Shown here: piece after piece, positions 3,953 to 35,392 of the stretch | Layout: each line of letters begins with the position of its first letter | Position numbering within the stretch: position 1 is the stretch's first letter | Source: Halopseudomonas phragmitis | Lineage (GTDB): Bacteria; Pseudomonadota; Gammaproteobacteria; Pseudomonadales; Pseudomonadaceae | Length of the DNA: 64,000 nucleotides | Direction: 5' to 3' | Assembly: GCF_002056295.1 (NCBI RefSeq) | Contig: NZ_CP020100.1 | Coordinates: forward strand, 3,929,501 to 3,993,500 | The notes under the pieces: model-generated | The model's database searches: none | Seen by the model: the letters and a program-made list of their open reading frames with translations, nothing else | What the model was told of the DNA's origin: nothing | Made by a program: the position numbers and the translations under genes

Positions 3953-5664
3953 ATCTCCAACAGATCAATTGGCGGTGCCACCCGATAGGTGGATGACTGG
4001 CTCGCGGCGATCTCATCACGCCACTGCGCCGGTATCTCAGGTGTATCCACAGCAAAACGGCGCGGATAACGGTCTTCCGGCGCTCCATTGCCTATGGAAT
4101 AGTTACCCGCAAACCCCGGCAGCGACTCGTCATAAGGCGGACTCTCTATACGCAGCCCCAACTGCGTCGGCTGTACTACCGGGACATTTGGGCTCCAGTC
4201 GTCAACAAAAGCGGGGGCATCCGGTACAACGAGAGGATCAGCTACCGCATTCTCTGCCCCTTGACTGACTGCCAACGTGATAGTCAGCAACGCCGCGCCG
4301 GTGTCCATGTCCAGATCATCGGTCAACTCAGTAACAGTACCGGTGATGCAAGCCTGATCATCCAGTTTCAAGCGCTGCCCCAGATCCACACCCAAGGCAT
4401 GAGCCAACGGAATCTGCCAACTGACCAAGTTGCCCCGCTGCGCGGCCAGCAACTGCGCTTTCGCTCGGTGCAAAGCAGTCAGCACTGCATTATCAAGGCG
4501 CGCCTGATCACGCCGAGGCAGCTGGGTTTCCGGCTCATCATCGCCAACCAGCCCGCCAGCCGCTCCCCGGCTTTCCTCCCACAGCCTGTCACTATCCGTA
4601 TCGGTATCCAGAACAACACGCTCGCGCGCAATCACCTCACCGACAGCAGCGACAGCAGCCGGGATCTCCAGCCGTATCGGGTAGCGCTCAACCGCGCGCT
4701 GGGTCCAGCGGATCGAAGCGCGCCAATCTGCCCCCAGTAAAAGGTCTGTGTTTTTGTTGTACCAAGGCTGAGGCAGGTTCGGCAGATCCCCCGGCAGGCG
4801 ATACCACTCGGCATAAGCTACCCACCACCCAGCCTGCTCCGTAGCCTGAATGATCATGGGTATGTCCGGCAGCTCAGTAGAGTCCTCACGCCATGCCAGC
4901 AGCCCCTGAACCCCCACAAGTCCTCCGGTACCAGGGTGCTGCCAACTGTAACGCTGGTAGCGCTGCCGGTATCGTGTGTAGCGATAATCCAACTCCAGCT
5001 CGACTACATTCGTGGTATCACTCAGCGAGGCCAACGCCACATCAAGCGACTGATACAGCGTGCTGCCCTGAGTGAAAACATAGCTGGTGCCCGCCGAGTA
5101 CCAGTTCGTTATGCGCGGCTGACCATTCATGGTCACGCTCAAACTGACGGTTTGAGTGCTCAGGCGCTCCTGGGCATATTCCCAGCGGCTGCGCCCTTCG
5201 CGCGGCTCAAACACATCGGCGCTCCACCAGCCACCAACCAGTAGATCTATCTGCTCAAAAGGCATAGTCTCAATCGAGTCGGCCAGGCGTGTTGTCGCCT
5301 CGCAACTCAGAACCCGGCTGAGTACGTCGAATTCTGGCTGCACCAGGTAGCCAGTAAACCGCCGCACGCTGGTTTGCGCCTCTCCCAACAACACGAAATC
5401 CAGTTGCACCGGCATGCCTGTGTAGGCAGCGATGTCCACCGGATCTGGCCCAAGCCAAAGCGCAAAGCTGCACACGCTATCACCCTGCTCTGGCCGGCTG
5501 ATACGCACCGCCCCAGCCAGACTGGCCGACACATCAGTACCACCCAACGTCAGGGCTATATCCCATACAAAGCTGTCACCGGGCTCCAGCTCCACCGCCG
5601 CGCCGCTTGCCCCACCCCACAGCCTATTGAGCGGCCCACTGTTTAGAGGGTTGCTATTGAGCAT
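3949..5664 (-). CDS. Large tail protein, putative baseplate/hub component
   Basis: 571 aa, no signal peptide. It follows the tape measure and a 165-aa protein, the place where siphophages keep distal-tail and hub proteins. The first 170 residues look like a beta-rich docking domain; the middle has a long Tyr/Trp-rich stretch; residues about 330-420 are helical with many Arg and Glu. I could not find a lambda gpJ-like or classical hub motif, so the assignment is positional. The C-terminus lists short Pro/Asp-rich segments typical of exposed loops. Confidence 0.6.
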   Translation of the reverse strand: MLNSNPLNSGPLNRLWGGASGAAVELEPGDSFVWDIALTLGGTDVSASLAGAVRISRPEQGDSVCSFALWLGPDPVDIAAYTGMPVQLDFVLLGEAQTSVRRFTGYLVQPEFDVLSRVLSCEATTRLADSIETMPFEQIDLLVGGWWSADVFEPREGRSRWEYAQERLSTQTVSLSVTMNGQPRITNWYSAGTSYVFTQGSTLYQSLDVALASLSDTTNVVELELDYRYTRYRQRYQRYSWQHPGTGGLVGVQGLLAWREDSTELPDIPMIIQATEQAGWWVAYAEWYRLPGDLPNLPQPWYNKNTDLLLGADWRASIRWTQRAVERYPIRLEIPAAVAAVGEVIARERVVLDTDTDSDRLWEESRGAAGGLVGDDEPETQLPRRDQARLDNAVLTALHRAKAQLLAAQRGNLVSWQIPLAHALGVDLGQRLKLDDQACITGTVTELTDDLDMDTGAALLTITLAVSQGAENAVADPLVVPDAPAFVDDWSPNVPVVQPTQLGLRIESPPYDESLPGFAGNYSIGNGAPEDRYPRRFAVDTPEIPAQWRDEIAASQSSTYRVAPPIDLLEI

Positions 5665-5665
5665 G

Positions 5666-6163
5666 TCAAACCTCGCGGCAGAAAAGCTGCCAACTCACAA
5701 CCCGGTCAGCCAGGCTAGCGGGTGGCGGTGTGCATAGCACAGTGAACCGGGGGTACCAGACGACTTCATACAGCGATGCACCGGCTACCGGGGTCATGCT
5801 TGCCACACGGCCGACCATCTCCACTGGCGTACTCACCCGGCGTCCACTCACCAGCGCTTCTGCGATGACCGACTCATCCGGTCGGGCGTCACTGGTAAGT
5901 GTCGCCTGCGGCAGAACTGTACTCAGCCGCATTGGGGCAGGGCTCCACAGCTCGTGGTAAGCATCCCAGTCAAGAGAGTCCAGACCGGTATCTATCCAAC
6001 CAGTGCCCGTAATGGTGATAGTTCTTTTCTTGAAGTGGCGCATGCGCACCGGTCGACCACCGCTCAGCACTGCATCTGTGTAGCCGTCGGGAGCGTCATA
6101 GCTTACGGCAGGCACACCGGAACATAGCGTCACCGGGATGCCGCCGAGGATGAGTTCAGGCAT
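5666..6163 (-). CDS. Putative distal tail protein, 165 aa
   Basis: It lies directly downstream of the tape measure and 1 bp from the next tail gene. The sequence is beta-rich and acidic, opening with MPELILGGIPV. Its size and place fit distal-tail or tail-tip adaptor proteins of long-tailed phages, which close the tail tube and hold the baseplate. The family itself is not recognised. Confidence 0.55.
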   Translation of the reverse strand: MPELILGGIPVTLCSGVPAVSYDAPDGYTDAVLSGGRPVRMRHFKKRTITITGTGWIDTGLDSLDWDAYHELWSPAPMRLSTVLPQATLTSDARPDESVIAEALVSGRRVSTPVEMVGRVASMTPVAGASLYEVVWYPRFTVLCTPPPASLADRVVSWQLFCREV

Positions 6164-22152: not shown

Positions 22153-22372
22153 GGCGTACCCCCTTTTGCTTGTGCTCAAACAACTGCTGGCAGTCCAAAC
22201 AGCGAATGCAACCGCAGCCGCTCAAAGCTGCCAGGCGCTCTGATGCAATGAGGTCGCCGCAGTCTTCACACGCGGGCGCCACCGTGCGCAAGGCACGGGT
22301 CGAGCGCTCAGCCAGTTTCTGGTCCAGATAGCGCTGCACGTTATCGTTGGCAATATCGACGTTATCAGCCAT
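22145..22372 (-). CDS. TraR/DksA-family zinc-finger protein
   Basis: 75 aa from MADNVDIAN. The C4 zinc finger reads CEDCGDLI with CIRCLDCQ about 20 residues later, and the helix before it matches short TraR-type members that lack the DksA coiled coil. They bind RNA polymerase in its secondary channel and shift promoter choice, mimicking DksA with ppGpp. It overlaps both neighbours by 8 bp. Confidence 0.9.
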   Translation of the reverse strand: MADNVDIANDNVQRYLDQKLAERSTRALRTVAPACEDCGDLIASERLAALSGCGCIRCLDCQQLFEHKQKGVRHG

Positions 22373-22904
22373 GGGCTGGCCCTCCCTCAACGTGGTGGTC
22401 CAGTGTGCGCTCCAGCAACAACAACGCGCCGTAAACGCGCTGAATCAGCTGTTTACACTCGGCCACCTCGCCGTGGTCCAGCACTCCGTCTGATAGGTGG
22501 TGCCCCAGCCGTTCAAGCAAGACAGACTGCTTACGCAAGGCTTCGCCCGCGCTGCTCAACACACCCGCCAACGCCTCAACCTCGCCCTGGTGCTCACGCT
22601 GCTGCCGGTCAAGCAACGGCTGCAGGTCTACCCAGCAGGCATTGCCAAAGGCCGCAATCATGGAGTCCACAATGCGCGGGTCGCGTGTGTAGGCGGTGAT
22701 TTCTTCAACCTCAACGGGCGTCAGGTTGTGGGTGCGTTGAGTGGGGCTCAGCTTGTGCTGCATGGTGGAAGGGTTACGCCCATATTGGGCAGCAAAACCG
22801 GCGGTACCGCCGGGCATTTCACGCAACGCGTGATAACAGGCAAGCTCCAGCGGCAACAGCTCCCGCTTGGCCCGCTCGACGCAACTCATGGCTGCTCGAC
22901 TCAT
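22365..22904 (-). CDS. Phage regulatory protein, CII family (CP76)
   Basis: 179 aa from MSRAAMSCVE, after GGAGAGA. The N-terminal HTH region (FAAQYGRNPSTMQHKLSPTQ) matches the phage regulatory CII family (PF06892). The C-terminal half is helical. It is the first coding gene after the hairpin array, the place of cII in lambdoid early operons, and probably takes part in the lysis-lysogeny choice. Confidence 0.85.
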   Translation of the reverse strand: MSRAAMSCVERAKRELLPLELACYHALREMPGGTAGFAAQYGRNPSTMQHKLSPTQRTHNLTPVEVEEITAYTRDPRIVDSMIAAFGNACWVDLQPLLDRQQREHQGEVEALAGVLSSAGEALRKQSVLLERLGHHLSDGVLDHGEVAECKQLIQRVYGALLLLERTLDHHVEGGPAHG

Positions 22905-22996
22905 GGCAGTTCTCTCCAAAGTCTGCCAGTGCCACAACGCGCCTGTTTTGCTACAGTTGCGCTGTGAGCACTGTCCCAGTGATCACAAACCCCTGA

Positions 22997-23222
22997 CCGG
23001 CTGCTCTGTGGTGGAAACGCCGGCCAGAAAAAAGGCATGGGCCACCGCTCCGTGGTGCCCCTGCCAACCCGCCCGCCTATCTGTGGTGGAGACGGCGGGC
23101 AACCAAAGGCCGGTAAATCTGTGGTGGAGATACCGGCAAGTCCTGATCCAATCAGGTCGGTGATAGCCGGGCGTGCCCGGCAGTCACTTACTGCAACCGA
23201 TCATCTGTGGTGGAGATGTCGG
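22997..23222 (-). repeat. Array of hairpins with conserved CCACCAC loop, possible nut/put-like site
   Basis: In the leftward (transcript) sense each unit is arm-TCT-CCACCAC-AGA-arm. Clear copies are 23197-23222 (9-bp stem, one bulge), 23109-23137 (10 bp, bulge) and 23071-23100 (7+3 bp). A weaker copy is 22997-23025 with a mismatch next to the loop. The outer arms differ in sequence (CCGAC, GCCGGT, GCCCGCC) yet pair within each unit, so structure rather than sequence is kept. The array fills the non-coding 448 bp between cro and the CII-family gene. A further copy lies at 27666-27680 in the other early operon. Confidence 0.72.
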
Positions 23223-23351
23223 CCCGGCTTACGCCGGAAGAATTTGGTCTTGGCTCAACCTCACGGCTGTACCGCGACCGAATCCAGTCCAGTACGGGCT
23301 GGCTTTCATCACCGCCATAGAGAGCGGATGTGAAACATGAGACCAATAGCG

Positions 23352-23582
23352 CTAAGCCGCTGCCTTTCTTCGTGCACCTCGCGCAAGGATCTCCTCAGCA
23401 CTGAACGGCTCACCAGCGGCCTTCGCCAAAACTGCTGCGTAAGAGGTTTCGCCGGTGTATTCAGTCCTAGGCAACGCGTCAGCAGCAAGCCACTTGTAGA
23501 CAGCCCTGGGGCTAACTCCGCAGATTCCAGCAGCTGCAGATACGCCACCAGCCTTTGCGACAACCTCTTTCAAAGCGCTCAT
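23352..23582 (-). CDS. Cro-like repressor (YdaS/Cro HTH)
   Basis: 76 aa from MSALKEVV, after AAAGG. It has a single helix-turn-helix (GGVSAAAGICGVSPRAVYKW) typical of Cro/YdaS antirepressors that bind DNA as dimers. It is divergent from the CI-type gene with a 77-bp operator region between them, which gives the classic switch. It should repress the CI promoter and open the leftward early operon. Confidence 0.85.
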   Translation of the reverse strand: MSALKEVVAKAGGVSAAAGICGVSPRAVYKWLAADALPRTEYTGETSYAAVLAKAAGEPFSAEEILARGARRKAAA

Positions 23583-23602
23583 AAGCAAACCTTTTTGAAC
23601 TT

Positions 23603-23659: not shown

Positions 23660-24391
23660 ATGGTACAAAATGACGAACTACGACAAGCCTTTGCCCAACG
23701 CCTGAAAGCCGCCCTCAAAAATGCCGGGCAGGAATCTTGGGGCGCAGGCGTTTATCTACGCGATGTGGCCGGGGTTTCCGACAAGGCCGCAAGTAAGTGG
23801 TTGAATGGCGAGACCATGCCTGGGCGCGCCAATATGCTTACTATCGCCAACCATCTCGGTGTCCGCGTGGAGTGGCTGCAATACGGTGAAGGCTCGCCGA
23901 GCGGTAGCAACGTTAAGGACAACAATGTGATCACAGCTGACTTTGCCGGGCGCGGTCGCCTCAAAGATGGTGAAATCTCGATCCCCCAGTACAACATTCG
24001 CGGCGCAATGGGCCACGGACAGGTTCCCGCCGACTACATCGAAACTGTTCGCCACCTTACGCTGCACGAGTCTCACCTGATTGGCCGCGGCATCTCGTTC
24101 AGCAAGGTTGAGAATCTGGCAGTGATCACCGGATGGGGCCAAAGCATGGAAGGCACCATCAACGACGGAGATCCAGTCATCATCGACCGCGGAGTCCACT
24201 CCTTTATGGGTGACGGGGTTTACGTGTTTACGTGGGACAACCTTCTGTACATTAAACGCCTTCAGAAACATTCCCCTACCCAGTTCGACATGATTAGCGA
24301 TAACGAAAAGCACAAGGACCAGATCATTTGTGTTTCTGACGTGCAGATTCACGGCAGAGTTTTGCTGGTCTGGAATGCAAGAAAACTTTGA
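23660..24391 (+). CDS. CI-type prophage repressor with LexA/S24 domain
   Basis: 243 aa. An N-terminal HTH (about residues 30-75, AGVSDKAASKWLNGE) is joined to a C-terminal S24 self-cleavage domain with Ser162 in GQSMEGT and Lys199 in YIKR; the cleavage loop is probably near residues 115-119 (GAMGHG). It keeps the prophage silent and is inactivated after RecA activation in DNA damage. The next two genes follow closely on the same strand, so they are probably expressed in the lysogen with it. Confidence 0.93.
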   Translation: MVQNDELRQAFAQRLKAALKNAGQESWGAGVYLRDVAGVSDKAASKWLNGETMPGRANMLTIANHLGVRVEWLQYGEGSPSGSNVKDNNVITADFAGRGRLKDGEISIPQYNIRGAMGHGQVPADYIETVRHLTLHESHLIGRGISFSKVENLAVITGWGQSMEGTINDGDPVIIDRGVHSFMGDGVYVFTWDNLLYIKRLQKHSPTQFDMISDNEKHKDQIICVSDVQIHGRVLLVWNARKL

Positions 24392-24412: not shown

Positions 24413-25555
24413 ATGAGCGAAACATCTGAAAGACCCGTCGAATATATAGCGTTAGATAAGCTGCTACTCGACGCGGAAAACCCACGCTTTGGTGTAGCTA
24501 AAGGCGCGCGAAGAAATCAAAAAGAAATATTAGACTACATTGTCGAGAATTTCGGCATTGACGACGTCCTCAGTTCCTTGGCCTACAACGGTTACTTTGA
24601 TGCCGAGCCATTAATCGCGAGAAAAAATGATGATGGAACTTACACCATTATCGAAGGAAACCGACGCCTTTCAGCCTGCTTAATACTAAGCCATTCAGAC
24701 CGTGCAAATAACCAACACCAAAGAACAAGCCAGTTTAGCGAAGAAGTTCTTGAAAAATGGAACGAACCGGGAATAACCATCCCTGTTCATGTCTTTGGGA
24801 AATCAGACAACCTAAATAAGCTACACGCCTACTTAGGTGTCCGACATATCACTTCTGCTAAAGCTTGGGACTCATATGCCAAAGCCGCCTGGATTGACAG
24901 TGTAGTCTCGTCTGGAGAGATGACGCTCAACGAAATCGCAGAAGTGACCGGCGATAAAAACAACACAATCCAAAGACTTTTAGAAGGTTATTACTTCGTA
25001 AACCAGCTAATAGAAAGCGGCGACTTCATTCCGGAAAACAGCAGCAGAAAAGGCAGAGGCAGCAATCCTGAGTTCCCGTTCTCCTGGATATACACCTTAC
25101 TTAACTACGCGCGAGTAAGAGACCACTTAAAACTCGCGGAATTTGACGAAAAGAATCAGAAACCAGTACCGCAAGATCGTGTTAGGGAAGCGAGCAACAT
25201 CGTACGCTACATGTTTGGTGACCGTAGCAGCGCTCAAAACGGTGCGATTACCGATTCCAGACAGCTAGGAGCTCTAGCAACAGCTATTAGCGACCCAGTG
25301 CAGCGCGACCTCCTGGAGCGCGGAAAAAGCATCGATGAGATCATCAAGCAAACCAGACCATCAATTGACCAGCTCACAAGCTCTTTAATGACGTGCAAGG
25401 AAGAACTTATATCAGCTACAGGCTTAGTTAACAGTGGCGATATCCCTGCTGAAGATGCAGAGAAGGTGCTTGCGCAGGCCCGCGACGTTGCCAACTTAGC
25501 TGCTGCCCTTTTCAGGTCGATTAAAAACCTCGATGAGCCGAGTCCCGTTGAATAA
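24413..25555 (+). CDS. ParB/Srx-domain protein, cargo gene behind the repressor
   Basis: 380 aa. Residues about 8-95 show the ParB N-terminal fold: a DAENPRF-type opening and the catalytic/CTP-site-like motif EGNRRLSA (residues 81-88). The rest is helical, with an HTH-like segment near residues 175-195 (LNEIAEVTGDKNNTIQRLL). It is unlike plasmid ParB and has no ParA partner. The gene is AT-rich compared with the phage core, starts 21 bp after cI and touches the next gene (stop/start overlap). Proteins of this type occur in defence and DNA-modification loci; that role is inferred. Confidence 0.75.
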   Translation: MSETSERPVEYIALDKLLLDAENPRFGVAKGARRNQKEILDYIVENFGIDDVLSSLAYNGYFDAEPLIARKNDDGTYTIIEGNRRLSACLILSHSDRANNQHQRTSQFSEEVLEKWNEPGITIPVHVFGKSDNLNKLHAYLGVRHITSAKAWDSYAKAAWIDSVVSSGEMTLNEIAEVTGDKNNTIQRLLEGYYFVNQLIESGDFIPENSSRKGRGSNPEFPFSWIYTLLNYARVRDHLKLAEFDEKNQKPVPQDRVREASNIVRYMFGDRSSAQNGAITDSRQLGALATAISDPVQRDLLERGKSIDEIIKQTRPSIDQLTSSLMTCKEELISATGLVNSGDIPAEDAEKVLAQARDVANLAAALFRSIKNLDEPSPVE

Positions 25556-26514
25556 TGTACACTCCAGACACTACTCGCTGGAGCGATAGAACATTACTAT
25601 TCAAACCAGCAACAAATGCAGACCAAACCGAATTAGAAGCAATGAAATTTGGTTCCACTCCGATAGACACTGGAGTGCAAGATGATCTAATCGCGGATGA
25701 ACATCATGCTGACGACTTAAATGCTGACAACAATTGGGAGCAGGAAGATTTTGCGATAGAAGAAGTAAGCGGAAAAGTCGCCATTGAAATAGACAGAAGA
25801 GCAATTCTTGGTAATGGAAGCTACCCTTTTGTTCGTCAAGGCAACACGCTGAGGTACATCCCTAGCTCAACATCAGCTTATGAATTCTGCCTAGTAACCA
25901 GCCTACAAAAGAACATCACCAGAGCGCCATTCAACTCTCTCCCTATCACATTCGAACTATTATCCGCGGAGGTAGCAAAGCTTTATCTCGGAGAAAAGGC
26001 TGAGTGTGTCAGGACGGGATGGCCATCCCACGGCCCAGACCGCCCGACGTCCTTCATTGATTTGATGCTTCATGTCAAAAGGCTGACAGGCGAGTTTGAA
26101 TGGCATCCAAGAATCCCAGTTGGGCCAGACGAGGGAGATGTAGGACCTAAGGATGAAGGAATGGACTACGTTGCCTGGAAGCCGTTTGGCGACCAGCGTA
26201 ACGGCAAGATTTTCCTTCTAGGACAATGTGCGTGCGGGAATGACTGGGTAGACAAGCTAGACGACCTGAGCAAGGAAAAACTACAGCAGTGGCTAAACCC
26301 CATTACTTGGGCCGAGTTCTTACCAGCGTTCTCAGTTCCATACCACATACCTGGGCACTACATTTTTTCGTACGTATGTACCCAAGCTGGTGTCACATTC
26401 GATCGTCTTCGCCTAGCAATAATATCGGAGCAATATAACGCCACATTTCCTCAAGAGTTAAAGGAAAAGCTGATAGCAGGAGTGAGGTTATTCCTACCCG
26501 ATTACCGGACTTAG
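25555..26514 (+). CDS. Unclassified protein with possible PD-(D/E)XK-like nuclease core, 319 aa
   Basis: I do not recognise a named family. The first 75 residues are acidic and probably flexible. A suggestive core runs from about residue 198 to 235: EGMDYVAW, then KIFLLGQCACG and a Trp-Val-Asp-Lys. Asp204 and Gln224 lie where a diverged PD-(D/E)XK enzyme would carry its metal Asp and its Glu/Gln. It is coupled to the ParB-like gene and overlaps the stop of the convergent methyltransferase by 4 bp. AT-rich like its partner. A restriction or defence nuclease is a hypothesis. Confidence 0.6.
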   Translation: MYTPDTTRWSDRTLLFKPATNADQTELEAMKFGSTPIDTGVQDDLIADEHHADDLNADNNWEQEDFAIEEVSGKVAIEIDRRAILGNGSYPFVRQGNTLRYIPSSTSAYEFCLVTSLQKNITRAPFNSLPITFELLSAEVAKLYLGEKAECVRTGWPSHGPDRPTSFIDLMLHVKRLTGEFEWHPRIPVGPDEGDVGPKDEGMDYVAWKPFGDQRNGKIFLLGQCACGNDWVDKLDDLSKEKLQQWLNPITWAEFLPAFSVPYHIPGHYIFSYVCTQAGVTFDRLRLAIISEQYNATFPQELKEKLIAGVRLFLPDYRT

Positions 26515-27509
26515 TCCCATATGTCAGGCAACGCTGCAGCTACCGCTTCAAACATCGGCGGTGGCACTGCGTTACCAATCACACGGTAGCGGTGCCTGAG
26601 CATATTGTATGCAAAGTCCTTGCGCCCACTTTCAATGTTCTCAGGAAAAACCATGTCGCCTTGGTGTGTAGTGAATCGGGGCATGAAGCCCTGAAGCCTG
26701 GCCGCCTCTCGGTACGAAAACCTCCTAGCTGGCGCGTCGCTCTCGAACACCCATTTATCAGTGTGAATACGCTGCAATACCGGGCTAACGGGATGCAAAG
26801 GCATGTGCCGCATATGACTCACAATAGTTTTGCTCAACTCTCCCCAGTCTCTGCGCCGATTGCGGGACAGGTAATACCAGTGGAAAGGGTCCTCACAAAA
26901 CTCACCCGCCGGCCACTCAGGAAGCCCAGCCAGCGCCTCTTTAATGGTGAAATAAGGCTTGTCGACTGACGGCCCATGTGTGGCACCCGGAAACGAGAAG
27001 CTTGCTCCCAAATCCCTTCGAATGCCAACGATCACGAGCCGCTTCCGTTCTTGGGCGACTCCATAATCGTGCGCGTTTAGCAACTGCCACTTGACGTCAT
27101 AACCGAACTTTCCTGCCTCGGCAAAACGCTTAAGCTGATCTTCCAACAGGTGACGATAGGTGCTGCGCCGCAGCCCTGAAACGTTCTCAGCAATAAATGC
27201 TCTAGGCTCAATATCCCCAAGAGCTCGCGCGAACTCCAAGTAGAGCGTGTTGATTTTTCGATTCGCCTCACGTGCCCCACCTTGGCTAAACCCTTGACAC
27301 GGGTAGCAGCCTACAAGCAGATCAGCTCTGGGGAAGCTCTCAATCGTCGAGACGTCCCCAAGGAAATAGTCTGTGTCTGGAAAGTTGGACAGGTACACGT
27401 CACGGGCATAGGGAAGAATATCGTTGGCCATAATCACGTCGAAACCGGCAGAGATCACCCCCGCATCAGAACCGCCGCAACCTGAAAAAAGTGAAACCGC
27501 TGTAGGCAT
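26511..27509 (-). CDS. C5-cytosine DNA methyltransferase
   Basis: 332 aa with the ordered C5-MTase motifs: I (SLFSGCGGSDAG), IV with the catalytic Cys (LLVGCYPCQGFSQ), VI (AENVSGL), VIII (QERKRLVIVG) and X (GNAVPPP). The target-recognition region is short. It transfers methyl from SAM to cytosine in a DNA site that cannot be predicted. Convergent with the two cargo genes and read from its own leftward promoter region near 27510-27600, so it can be expressed on its own, as protective methyltransferases are. Confidence 0.93.
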   Translation of the reverse strand: MPTAVSLFSGCGGSDAGVISAGFDVIMANDILPYARDVYLSNFPDTDYFLGDVSTIESFPRADLLVGCYPCQGFSQGGAREANRKINTLYLEFARALGDIEPRAFIAENVSGLRRSTYRHLLEDQLKRFAEAGKFGYDVKWQLLNAHDYGVAQERKRLVIVGIRRDLGASFSFPGATHGPSVDKPYFTIKEALAGLPEWPAGEFCEDPFHWYYLSRNRRRDWGELSKTIVSHMRHMPLHPVSPVLQRIHTDKWVFESDAPARRFSYREAARLQGFMPRFTTHQGDMVFPENIESGRKDFAYNMLRHRYRVIGNAVPPPMFEAVAAALPDIWD

Positions 27510-27616: not shown

Positions 27617-27651
27617 AACCAAAAGTTCTTTACCTAATTGTACTTTTGGTT
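27617..27651. promoter_or_regulatory. Operator-like dyad ahead of the rightward early operon
   Basis: AACCAAAAGT (27617-27626) and ACTTTTGGTT (27642-27651) form a perfect 10-bp inverted repeat with a 15-bp spacer. It contains GTACTTT, the reverse of AAAGTAC in the cro/cI operators, so the same repressor may act here. The A/T-rich stretch to 27660 could be the -10 region. The rest of 27510-27692 holds nothing coding. Confidence 0.5.
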
Positions 27652-27665
27652 CATATTTATTTCAT

Positions 27666-27680
27666 CTCTCCACCACAGAG
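27666..27680 (+). repeat. CCACCAC-loop hairpin in the rightward early leader
   Basis: CTCT-CCACCAC-AGAG: the loop is identical to the copies between cro and cII, and the outer pair has changed from A-T to C-G with pairing kept. It is in transcript sense here too. It lies just ahead of the ribosome site (GAGGT) of the 53-aa ORF. Confidence 0.65.
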
Positions 27681-27692
27681 CCGAGGTAAACG

Positions 27693-27854
27693 ATGAAGAC
27701 CACCACACTCCACGCGCTGCCATCCTGCAGCGCAGACCGCATCTTTGATCTGCGCAGAGCCGCACGCAACACCGGCGCCCGGTATGTTGTTAGCCGACCA
27801 CGCCTGCTCAGCCGCACCCCCTCCCCCTCACCACAAGGAGGCGACGCAGCATGA
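27693..27854 (+). CDS. Short Arg-rich peptide, candidate RNA-binding protein
   Basis: 53 aa, opening MKTTTLHALPSCSADRIFD. Eight Arg are spread over residues 16-41, and the C-terminus is Ser/Pro-rich. GAGGT lies 7-10 nt ahead of the ATG, and the stop overlaps the next start as ATGA, so it is probably translated. Being the first ORF after a hairpin leader copies the place of lambda N, whose Arg-rich motif binds boxB. Equivalence is inferred; no sequence similarity to N is claimed. Confidence 0.55.
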   Translation: MKTTTLHALPSCSADRIFDLRRAARNTGARYVVSRPRLLSRTPSPSPQGGDAA

Positions 27855-28381
27855 ACATGCTCAGACTCAACCAGGCCAGCCACGCCCGCCTGCCAGCACA
27901 ACTGGCACTCAATGGCACCTTTGAACACACCCTGCGCAACAACCTGGGCGTAAGCACAACAGTGCAAATGCTGGTGCTGCAATGCAGCCATGCTGTTGAG
28001 CTGACCGCCAGCAGCGACCAGGGCCACAGCTGCATCACCCTCAAGCGCCCAGCCTGCCCGGAACGCGCGGCTCGGTTTATTGAAGGCACTATCAACGGCG
28101 TGCACACAGAAGCCACCCAACCTGATGAATGGGATCTGGTGACCGAAGTGGAGAGTACTCTGCGCCGCGCAGTCGTCATGCGACAAGGCACCCAACAGTT
28201 CACCACAGACGACGATCTGGACGTGGAGGTGATCAGCTCACCGGAGCGCACCTGCATTCAAGTGCAAGACACCCGTCTCTGCATGGCGCTGCCAACCGAT
28301 CCGGAAGCCGCCTATCAGCAACTGCACGATCTGCTGCAGCGCTTTCTCAGCGCCTGCCGCAGCACCGCACAGGTAGCCTGA
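27851..28381 (+). CDS. Hypothetical early phage protein, 176 aa
   Basis: Not recognised. Soluble, mixed alpha/beta, with an acidic patch near residues 118-125 and five scattered Cys. It overlaps the previous stop by 4 bp, with AAGGAGG as ribosome site, and is followed 10 bp later by the KilA-C-like gene. Early right operons often carry recombination or host-takeover proteins here, but nothing identifies such a role. Confidence 0.6.
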   Translation: MNMLRLNQASHARLPAQLALNGTFEHTLRNNLGVSTTVQMLVLQCSHAVELTASSDQGHSCITLKRPACPERAARFIEGTINGVHTEATQPDEWDLVTEVESTLRRAVVMRQGTQQFTTDDDLDVEVISSPERTCIQVQDTRLCMALPTDPEAAYQQLHDLLQRFLSACRSTAQVA

Positions 28382-30670: not shown

Positions 30671-30864
30671 GCACAGTCCGCTGGGTGCTGATCAACCGCG
30701 CATCCGAACTGACCGGCTACACCGTCAACGCCATTCAGCACAAGATCAAAGGCGGGGTATGGCCACAGGGCAAGCTGTGGCGCAAAGCACCGGATGGCAG
30801 AATCCTAATCAACCTTGAGGAGTTTGATCGTTGGGCAGAGAGCGCACCACAGGAAGCGGCATAG
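30667..30864 (+). CDS. xis: Excisionase
   Basis: 65 aa, winged-helix excisionase type: INRASELTGYTVNAIQHKI, then GVWPQGKLWRKAPDGRI and a closing LEEFDRWAES. This kind acts with tyrosine integrases to direct excision. Strong AGGAGG ribosome site. It overlaps the integrase gene. Confidence 0.88.
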   Translation: MSTVRWVLINRASELTGYTVNAIQHKIKGGVWPQGKLWRKAPDGRILINLEEFDRWAESAPQEAA

Positions 30865-32108
30865 AGGCCGAACTGGCCAAGTCGCCAGGGGTTGAGGTTC
30901 ACGGCAAAAGTCTGCGTATCGTGTTCATGTACCGAGGCAGGCGACACCGTGAAACCCTCGGCTTGCCGATCACCAAAGCCAACGTCAAACACGCCGCCCA
31001 AAAAAGGGCGGCGGTTCTTCATGCAATCAAAACTGGCACATTCGACTACGGCCAAGCGTTCCCCGACTCAAAGCACGCAGGCGAACGACCAGCCAGCAGA
31101 TCCGCACGCCTGCATGAACTGATGGCGCTCTACCTGCCACTCAAAGCGGTAGATATTACCCCGGACACAGAGGCCCGGTACCGGCATGCCCTGCAAGTAA
31201 CGGTCGACACGCTTGGTCCTGACCGACTGGCCAGCACACTGATGCCTATGGATATTCAGAACCTACGCGCAGAGTTGATTGCCACCCGCAAGCCGAGCAC
31301 TGTGAATCACTACCTGGCCACGTTCGCCGGGATGCTGGAGTGGTGCGAGAAGAACGGGTACGCCCCGGCCGGTCTGGCCAGCGCCTGCACACGTTTTGAC
31401 AACACAGAGGAAGATCCAGACCCGCTGACCCGCGAGGAGTATCAGCAGCTCATTGAGAAGGGATGCCTACACGAGCAGGACAGCGCCGCCATCACACTGA
31501 TGGTCTACACCGGCCTGCGCCCAGGCGAGCTGTGCGGGCTGGGAGTGGAGGATATTGATATCAAGAAGGGATGTCTGCAGGTGGTGCGATCTGTCACCAG
31601 CAGGGGCACGTTCAAGGTGCCGAAGACAACGAAAAGCCGGACAGTCCTGCTGCTACCGCCGGCGCTGGAAGCTGCCAAGACGCTGATGAAGCTGGCCAGG
31701 GGATTCCCTCAGCAAACCGTTGACGTCGCAATCAACAGGCACCAGAGCAGAACCGACACCATCACACCGCTGATGTCGCCTAGGGTGCAAGCCAGAAGAA
31801 TGAAGGTGAACAACTGGTTTGTGCCGACCGCCTGGAACACCAAGTGGGGCAACATCCAGCGCCGCGCCGGCATCCGACCACGCCGCCCCTACCAAACGCG
31901 CCACACCTATGCGTGCTGGTGCATCACCGCGCATGGTAACCTTGCCTTCATCGCAAACCAGATGGGGCACAAAGACTTCACCATGCTGGTGAAGGTCTAC
32001 GGAAAATGGATGAACGACGCCTCAGAAGGTGAGATTCAGCGCATCTGGCAGGCAATGCAAGATAGTGAAAAACGCCCCAATCATGCCCCACAAAATCCTG
32101 AAACTTAA
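30831..32108 (+). CDS. int: Tyrosine-family integrase
   Basis: 425 aa if started at the TTG at 30831. Residues about 15-85 form an Arm-binding domain of the DUF3596 type, 90-185 the core-binding SAM-like domain, and 195-400 the catalytic domain with Arg230 (GLRPGEL), Lys265, Arg357-His358 (QTRHTY), His380 (MGHKD) and Tyr390 (VYGKW). The first box-II His is Tyr354, a substitution I recall as usual in this subgroup. It inserts the phage at att. The stop is 12 bp ahead of mutS in the same direction. Confidence 0.93.
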   Translation: MGRERTTGSGIEAELAKSPGVEVHGKSLRIVFMYRGRRHRETLGLPITKANVKHAAQKRAAVLHAIKTGTFDYGQAFPDSKHAGERPASRSARLHELMALYLPLKAVDITPDTEARYRHALQVTVDTLGPDRLASTLMPMDIQNLRAELIATRKPSTVNHYLATFAGMLEWCEKNGYAPAGLASACTRFDNTEEDPDPLTREEYQQLIEKGCLHEQDSAAITLMVYTGLRPGELCGLGVEDIDIKKGCLQVVRSVTSRGTFKVPKTTKSRTVLLLPPALEAAKTLMKLARGFPQQTVDVAINRHQSRTDTITPLMSPRVQARRMKVNNWFVPTAWNTKWGNIQRRAGIRPRRPYQTRHTYACWCITAHGNLAFIANQMGHKDFTMLVKVYGKWMNDASEGEIQRIWQAMQDSEKRPNHAPQNPET

Positions 32109-35261: not shown

Positions 35262-35392
35262 AAAAAAAAGGGGCGGGATAAACCCGCCCACTCTTTATTC
35301 CCTATGTGCTATCCGTGTCCCGTCATCCTGACGTCGTCATCCTGATCATCCCTAGTTCAGCTCCCTGCCGAACAGCGTTGTCCCTAACGCAT
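35262..35392 (-). ncRNA. rsmZ: RsmZ-type regulatory RNA
   Basis: About 130 nt, read leftward. It carries eight GGA motifs (five GGGA or AGGA in short succession, then others), followed by a strong terminator (GGGCGGG/CCCGCCC at 35271-35289 and eight U). Such RNAs sequester RsmA/CsrA and are made under GacS/GacA control. The location after fdxA is that of rsmZ in Pseudomonas. The start is estimated from the promoter at 35399-35426. Two copies of ATTTCAGGCAAAAAA at 35239 and 35254 lie past its end. Confidence 0.87.

Follow-up and report, generated by a model that had tools for sequence, protein, structure and literature searches.

Control of early phage transcription by RNA signals is usually illustrated by two systems from enteric phages, N/nut of phage lambda and the put sites of phage HK022, whose RNA acts on the beta′ zinc-binding domain of RNA polymerase. 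Lambda has one nut site where the PL operon begins, ahead of its first small gene, and a second between cro and cII; lambda-type phages carry N/boxB pairs whose loops are matched at both sites of one phage. Other RNA-binding proteins, among them ribosomal proteins and T4 RegA, are autoregulators whose own mRNA imitates the principal target and is repressed there, and in IS10 translation from read-through RNA is subject to fold-back inhibition. Lambda N binds its stem-loop through an arginine-rich motif, according to PMC4499122. For HK022, PMC9378689 places putL shortly after PL and putR ∼270 nt beyond the PR start, and describes put as two stem-loops within ∼70 nt that need no dedicated protein.

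Here we describe a system of two-site, loop-matched RNA hairpins tied to a conserved small gene. The two-site hairpin address and the small protein are shared by 155 distinct leaders from phage or prophage loci of Pseudomonas and Halomonas. The system looks like an undescribed RNA-based switch, with an N/nut-like layout and unrelated to lambda N/nut; among the matches listed from the open-access literature on phage antitermination and early-operon RNA, none describes these hairpins. The reading that we prefer, tentatively and with doubt slightly outweighing confidence, is that the phages encode an RNA address at two sites, through which early transcription is controlled and translation of the small ORF is gated.

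The window, meaning the whole 64,000-nt stretch of Halopseudomonas phragmitis DNA that was analysed, had earlier been read from its sequence alone. That sequence-only reading reported a hairpin CTCT-CCACCAC-AGAG in the leader of the rightward early operon and, right behind it, a coupled 53-aa ORF with eight Arg. The hairpin is present at 27666-27680 (+), the sequence confirming the coordinates, and the ORF follows at 27693-27854, its end overlapping the start of the next gene at 27851; the eight Arg are residues 16, 21, 22, 25, 30, 35, 37 and 41. The features on this side of the locus, all on the plus strand, are:

27629..27657 (+), predicted promoter of the rightward early operon (TTTACC-17-CATATT; from sequence and a promoter scan of relatives)
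27656..27690 (+), leader hairpin, whole (fold)
27656-27663 with 27683-27690 (+), outer stem of the leader hairpin (fold)
27666-27669/27677-27680 (+), inner stem CTCT/AGAG (fold)
27670-27676 (+), loop CCACCAC (fold)
27683-27686 (+), Shine-Dalgarno GAGG of the small ORF, in the 3′ arm of the hairpin (fold)
27693..27854 (+), small ORF, 53 aa, first gene of the operon, with ATGA overlap; phrog_35204, without assigned function (ORF and PHROG match)
27851..28381 (+), second gene of the operon, 176 aa; phrog_15582, without assigned function (PHROG match)

The outer stem, which covers the GAGG of the small ORF, had been missed. Over 51 nt the leader folds at -11.4 kcal/mol (z -3.4), and 1 of 200 shuffles was equally good. 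The 15-mer CTCTCCACCACAGAG (27666-27680, +) occurs once in the whole 4.04-Mb genome, its reversed control not at all. The bare 11-mer CTCCACCACAG, allowing up to one mismatch, occurs seven times in the window against 1.57 expected, with 1 of 100 shuffles yielding as many; since this enrichment is mild, the strength of the case rests on the relatives.

The same loop recurs in a four-hairpin array on the minus strand, between genes resembling cro and cII:

23660..24391 (+), CI-like repressor, S24-type, divergent from cro and on the same strand as the small ORF (profile matches)
23352..23588 (-), cro-like gene, upstream of the array (PHROG 35, 6.2e-14)
23196..23223 (-), array unit 1, loop CCACCAC, core 23207-23213 (sequence and fold)
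23109..23137 (-), array unit 2, core 23121-23127 (sequence and fold)
23068..23099 (-), array unit 3, core 23083-23089 (sequence and fold)
23028..23065 (-), intrinsic-terminator-like hairpin between units 3 and 4, loop ACGGAGC, then six T (sequence and fold)
22996..23024 (-), array unit 4, core 23008-23014 (sequence and fold)
22365..22904 (-), CII-like gene, downstream of the array, likely start ATG 22904 (PF06892, PHROG 101)

Each hairpin unit is longer than 15 nt and consists of outer stems, mostly a bulge of 1-2 nt or a small internal loop, an inner stem of ∼4 pairs and the loop CCACCAC. The outer stems of the array, also overlooked before, vary in their letters between units and yet pair. 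In 18 distinct units, aligned by fitting to that structure and so leaning towards it, 93.5% of cells pair, against 83.0% in shuffles and 28-50% when slid. Double changes fall in 15 cells against 4.7 in shuffles, none of 500 of which reached that number; of the five measures taken, two fall short, pairs with a double change being only mildly above shuffles (18/500 as high) and further pair types not unusual (188/500 as high). In the outermost pair of the 15-nt unit, for which a compensatory change had been claimed, the leader has C-G, and A-T is found in two of the four array units, the other two having G.T and G/G.

The RNA of the cro-cII region is structured and conserved throughout. An alignment of 15 relatives shows CCACCAC hairpins in alternation with others whose loop contains GGA, followed by a hairpin around the cII ribosome site, which lies between GGCA and TGCC arms just 5′ of the ATG (22900-22930, -, in the window, where the cII Shine-Dalgarno is inside GGCA..TGCCATG). 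GGA-loop hairpins occur in 31 of 33 Pseudomonas-type cro-cII regions, against 3-20 of 33 for other triplets, and stand among the CCACCAC hairpins of the window as well (22980-23240, -). They resemble RsmA/CsrA sites and, if they are such, would link the choice made by the phage to Rsm control in the host. A conserved intrinsic terminator was considered as part of the array and rejected: a strong stem (about -18 kcal/mol or better) before at least five T was found in the cro-cII regions of the window and one relative (L003) only, weaker stems before five T in three others (L106, L124, L125), and a lax scan gave 22/42. Nor do the hairpins belong to a known Rfam family: at gathering scores the Rfam 15 covariance models match the window once, at an RsmZ-family sRNA gene (35263-35391, with a ferredoxin-like ORF adjoining, judged by eye), and in five relatives (L009, L010, L025, L055, L077) no match at E≤0.1 falls in the hairpin regions, a mir-44 match in L009 (11355-11443) lying outside them and below cut-off.

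Between the repressor and the early promoter, 24413-27509 looks like a cargo slot, holding a ParB-like protein with matches to PD-Lambda-5_A models, a protein matched by neither Pfam nor PADLOC, and a C5 cytosine methyltransferase that comes close to DruM models. The relative L003 has a different gene in this position (5100-5795), and the spacing of the hairpin sites varies from 0.9 to 4.7 kb among loci. Further along the rightward operon is an excisionase/PrtN-like protein. An integrase-like ORF (30831-32108), with a mutS-like ORF directly behind it, was recognised by eye only.

Relatives were collected in two ways. A protein-blind DNA search with the pattern CTCTCCACCACAGAG-N1-3-GAGG found the leader hairpin in 84 stretches, 12 in a genome collection and 72 in a viral collection. 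The sequence-only reading had proposed a search for the peptide next to the hairpin in other prophages, and a homologue of the small ORF indeed stands 5-9 nt behind the pattern in 79 of the 84 (genome collection 9/12, viral 70/72). The five stretches without it are from a Clostridia bin (L024), Aeromonas (L026 and L029) and a viral contig (L069), together with L089, whose contig stops within the small ORF. Family profile A6, built from relatives of these ORFs, matches all 80 (the 79 and that of the window). Hosts of the nine genome matches are eight Pseudomonas, with P. fuscovaginae, P. khazarica and P. pseudonitroreducens among those named, and one gammaproteobacterial bin. Hairpins with CCACCAC occupy both sites in the P. 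aeruginosa phages vB_Pae_U5 (L010) and LPPA36 (L011) and in Halomonas phage vB_HmeY_H4907 (L009), and phage Haddon (L164) has the CCACCAC leader. The Halomonas type also admits a loop register shifted by one, G-[CCCACCA]-C, and its stems, TTGTCGT/ACGACAA and CTACACG/CGTGTAG, are unrelated in letters.

Two small-protein queries gave 28 loci by protein alone (contigs L113, L121 and L122 are also in the pattern set). The leader reads CCACCAC in 26 of these, CCACCA in L101 and neither in L124; an opposite-strand hairpin unit is present in all 28. L124 is a natural exception (5930-6000), in which the leader loop CCACCAC is lost and the ribosome site is more accessible, with an unpaired probability of 0.68, while the array unit before cII is kept.

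Presence of the same hairpin in both divergent early operons, predicted from the window, is borne out: opposite-strand units were found in 66 of the 84 pattern loci within the available sequence and in 42 of the 42 with at least 5 kb toward the repressor, in numbers of 1-4 and mostly 0.9-4.7 kb from the leader. As controls under the same lax rule, same-strand hairpins occur in 11 of the 42 long loci (at least six of them at one place shared by the P. aeruginosa group), and six permuted loops taken together give at least one hairpin in 23 of 42 (singly CACCACC 16, ACCCACC 9, CACACCC 1 and three loops 0). A recognisable CII-like gene is present in 92 of 113 loci, every one of them with units near its start. 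These lie upstream of the first cII ATG in 90 and only behind it in two (L077, L105), where the ATG seems to have been called too early; lax-rule units also occur behind the first ATG in 13 of the 92, some again from an ATG called too early. The arrangement of hairpin and small ORF is not due to chance; the relatives share ancestry, so the locus counts are not independent.

Among sampled genomes the small protein is found in 2 of 37 from the genus of the window, and in the window's genome alone among 369 from across the class, a sample that may hold few Halomonas. A model match at E≤0.001 occurs in 16 of 398 family genomes, with filters that lose weak matches. A host-wide regulon was considered, and the family-wide and class-wide samples show no sign of one; a plasmid search gave no match to the array region.

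The fixed places of the two sites are accompanied by a match of their loops. Distant relatives have CUCUCACCAA, CUCUCACCAC, CACUCACCAC or CUCUACC instead of CCACCAC, and LPPA56, Meadow, KT1 and SC_9_H1H8 show the same layout with another loop at both sites. Loops were read in the best 80 of 143 viral relatives of the LPPA56 small protein. At 69 loci of at least 2.5 kb, the longest string common to the leader and the opposite strand has a median of 12 nt, against 8 nt for the same strand, and a shared string of at least 10 nt is found on the opposite strand in 60 of 69 and on the same strand in 2 of 69; in L169 and L170 that string falls outside the loop. By class, leaders find their own string opposite in 88/92 for CCACCAC, 45/46 for CUCUCACCAA (with the CAC variant too in four), 9/9 for CUCUCACCAC (the CUCUCACCAA string in 0/9), 7/8 for CUCUACC, 2/2 for CUCUCACUU/CCU, and 1/1 each for CUCUAACC, CUCUCACCCC and CACUCACCAC. 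Three single-variant leaders (L173, L174, L176) do so in none, and L124 and L205 are outside every loop class. CCACCAC or CCCACCA is also found opposite in 14/46 CUCUCACCAA and 8/8 CUCUACC loci. Seven-letter strings are thus unspecific over 5 kb, and a strict stem rule was therefore applied. Under it the 92 CCACCAC leaders face a CCACCAC hairpin in 75 loci, one of CUCU type in two and no array hairpin in 14, while the 70 CUCU leaders face a CUCU hairpin in 47, CCACCAC in none and no array hairpin in 21. With the two CUCUCACC variants, at 53 loci both sites have the first variant in 40 and the second in nine, the array has both in three, and the sites disagree in one.

That leader and array loop classes go together, as one address in both early operons, is well supported. 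On the tree of CUCUCACCAA and CUCUCACCAC loci five changes occur in leader and array alike, two of them as well supported independent pairs, and the co-change is not significant; the match is looser within the CUCUACC group. CACCA is common to the CCACCAC, CUCUCACCA and CACUCACCAC loops. In the CUCU group small proteins 88-93% identical can go with different loops, and L208 (CUCUCACCAC) closely resembles L215 (CUCUCACCAA); both observations speak against a reader of every letter that consists of the small protein only.

Antisense pairing would explain why loops change where the protein does not. A CII-activated transcript running across the array toward cI would carry the complement of the array loops and pair with the leader loop, which would shut down the other early operon as lysogeny is established; this requires identical leader and array loops and leaves the stems free to differ. 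In the window GCAACTGTAGCAA lies at 22948-22960, and the other strand there reads TTGC-N5-TTGC, which resembles the CII site of the lambda PRE promoter and points toward cI. TTGC-N5/6-TTGC precedes cII in 8 of 42 regions against 0.5% of shuffles, an excess that fits the pairing scheme, but the site is seen in no more than those 8 of 42. Moreover, pairing RNAs should drift freely, yet of the 21 clusters of small proteins nearly all retain CCACCAC in their leaders (L124 lost it). We consider antisense pairing improbable.

Leader geometry bears on how the small ORF may be translated. A sigma-70 match scoring at least 8 was found by promoter scan in 136 of the 155 distinct leaders, the loop beginning a median 12 nt behind the -10 box (IQR 12-13; 130/136 within 8-26) and the 5′ arm of the hairpin setting in where that box ends. 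Purines are frequent at position 7 (69/128) and position 8 (74/128) behind the box, and are rare at position 6 (8/128). The start site is therefore predicted to lie inside the 5′ arm, at A27664 in the window, so that RNA from the early promoter would form the inner stem only and read-through RNA the full stem; in the window the repressor gene is upstream on the same strand, which makes read-through from cI into the hairpin possible. For 20 of the 21 cluster representatives, folding of the 45 nt upstream of the ATG buries the Shine-Dalgarno. In RNA from the predicted start its mean unpaired probability is 0.29 for CCACCAC leaders (n=79; at least 0.5 in 11) and 0.28 for other leaders (n=46; at least 0.5 in five); in read-through RNA these values are 0.05 and 0.12, and no leader of either set reaches 0.5. 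We had considered that the ribosome site is always hidden, and gave this up in view of the promoter geometry, by which RNA from the predicted start hides it partly.

The same values, with the 5′ arm starting at the end of the -10 box, would suit a hairpin whose sole task is to keep ribosomes off the small ORF in transcripts derived from cI, the loop being incidental. Such a shield leaves the conserved loop and its match with the array unexplained, and we regard it as very improbable. A wider possibility is that control is post-transcriptional only: the small protein would repress its own mRNA at the leader hairpin with no effect on RNA polymerase, and the array would supply further sites for stability or use of the cII-replication mRNA, or a titrating sponge. 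The ribosome site lies within the leader hairpin in both the CCACCAC and the CUCU class, one hairpin at the protein's own gene and 1-4 at the other operon fit a repressor with a decoy, and terminators are not a constant part of the array. Most array units, on the other hand, precede the cII start by ∼70-320 nt and fall outside the hairpin that holds its ribosome site, and the place after cro and before cII is that of the polymerase-directed sites in lambda and HK022. On balance we hold this account to be unlikely, while giving it appreciable weight. If control is translational, it explains how the first early gene stays silent in lysogens.

The small protein is under purifying selection, with dN/dS = 0.27 for the window's ORF in its own cluster (n=4) and 0.11-0.36 in 10 of 11 clusters (0.60 in the other). 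The 113 loci encode 87 distinct small proteins, forming 21 clusters at 70% identity, and a search of 5.8 billion proteins gave 56 relatives with E≤0.001. Among 57 relatives of the small ORF, 36 match phrog_13491 and 27 phrog_35204, both of them names without function; Pfam and NCBIfam offer no convincing family. The predicted fold is beta-alpha-beta (pLDDT 77), the model of the Halomonas type having one more strand and helix (pLDDT 67). PDB searches by sequence (best E 0.37) and by fold (best E 0.51) gave nothing significant, so the model assigns no function.

The proposal of an N-like arginine-rich peptide is not supported. Cluster representatives have 3-8 Arg (at least six in 11 of 21), and no Arg stands in an invariant or nearly invariant column of the alignment of 57 relatives, so that an arginine-rich loop reader was rejected as a family feature; the predicted fold, the boxA counts given below and the near-identical proteins with different loops point the same way. 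The tail is not conserved save where it codes for the ribosome site of the next gene, so an RNA polymerase-binding part is not evident; the conserved C-terminal GG-AA encodes the Shine-Dalgarno and start of that gene, and its conservation need not reflect protein function.

Could the hairpins act on RNA polymerase by themselves, the small ORF being simply the first gene of the operon? One site at the start of PL and one set after cro are placed as putL and putR are in PMC9378689. By that same paper put is a 70-nt two-stem RNA, however, whereas the leader here is one ∼35-nt hairpin. The small ORF, present in 79 of 84 pattern matches, is itself under purifying selection, and if every loop bound one and the same surface of the polymerase, phages of a single host genus would not be expected to differ in loop class. 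We give this cis-acting alternative little credence.

Under the preferred two-site address, a single trans-acting factor would recognise the shared loop in both transcripts, in one early operon where it begins and in the opposed one within the cro-cII leader. The likeliest candidate is the small protein whose gene follows the leader hairpin, perhaps aided by a host partner. At the leader the factor would gate translation of its own gene, whose ribosome site sits in the hairpin: read-through RNA from cI would fold the full stem and hide that site, and early-promoter RNA would have the inner stem only, with the site partly hidden. Once bound, the complex may in both operons allow transcription to continue through barriers and on into the early genes, much like N at its nut sites, nutL and nutR. 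More doubtful is the full scheme in which a small beta-alpha-beta protein unrelated to N would read phage-specific loops in both early operons, modify transcription from both and set its own level via the same loop; the hairpin would straddle the promoter, restricting translation to true early transcripts, and the loop classes would be addresses keeping co-resident prophages apart. For temperate phages of Pseudomonas and Halomonas this would be a new way of controlling early genes. With or without an effect on transcription, two PHROG families without function gain a testable one.

How far the likeness to lambda extends can now be said. Of the nutL-N-like arrangement proposed for the window, the layout stands, with the same hairpin in both early operons, on the left before the first small gene and on the right between cro and cII, and membership in N/nut does not. 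The loop here is CCACCAC or CUCU(C/A)ACC(A) and not boxB, the right site has 1-4 hairpins, and the small protein is predicted to be beta-alpha-beta, without conserved Arg or tail. A boxA with at most one mismatch lies within 330 nt before cII in 4 of 42 regions (reversed 2, antisense 1, shuffles 3%) and within 500 nt in 5 of 42 (reversed 4, antisense 1); mean mismatches before cII are as in the controls, and leaders have 3-4 mismatches. BoxA was accordingly rejected as a part of the system, though the window holds one near-match, CGCTCTCTA at 23318-23326 (-), ∼95 nt upstream of array unit 1 and one mismatch from boxA. Since boxA is not enriched and the arginine-rich motif and conserved tail are absent, we do not file the system as a member of N/nut; it works like N/nut at most.

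As with ribosomal proteins and T4 RegA, a ribosome site lies inside a hairpin that repeats the loop of another target, a likeness read from sequence in which the other target is a phage leader and not rRNA. Fold-back inhibition as in IS10 would have the 5′ arm upstream of the promoter's own start site; in the present leaders the predicted start falls inside that arm. Among the matches listed from the open-access literature on fold-back inhibition, nothing was pertinent. HK022 put, according to PMC9378689, likewise has one RNA site shortly after PL and another in the PR operon; the ∼70-nt two-stem RNA present at both of its sites was not found here, where the leader is a single ∼35-nt hairpin followed by a conserved small gene, and where the loops vary from phage to phage. 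Should the present system prove nut-like, it would have evolved independently, with loop classes that match between the sites, and might supply an orthogonal RNA-protein pair for use in Pseudomonas.
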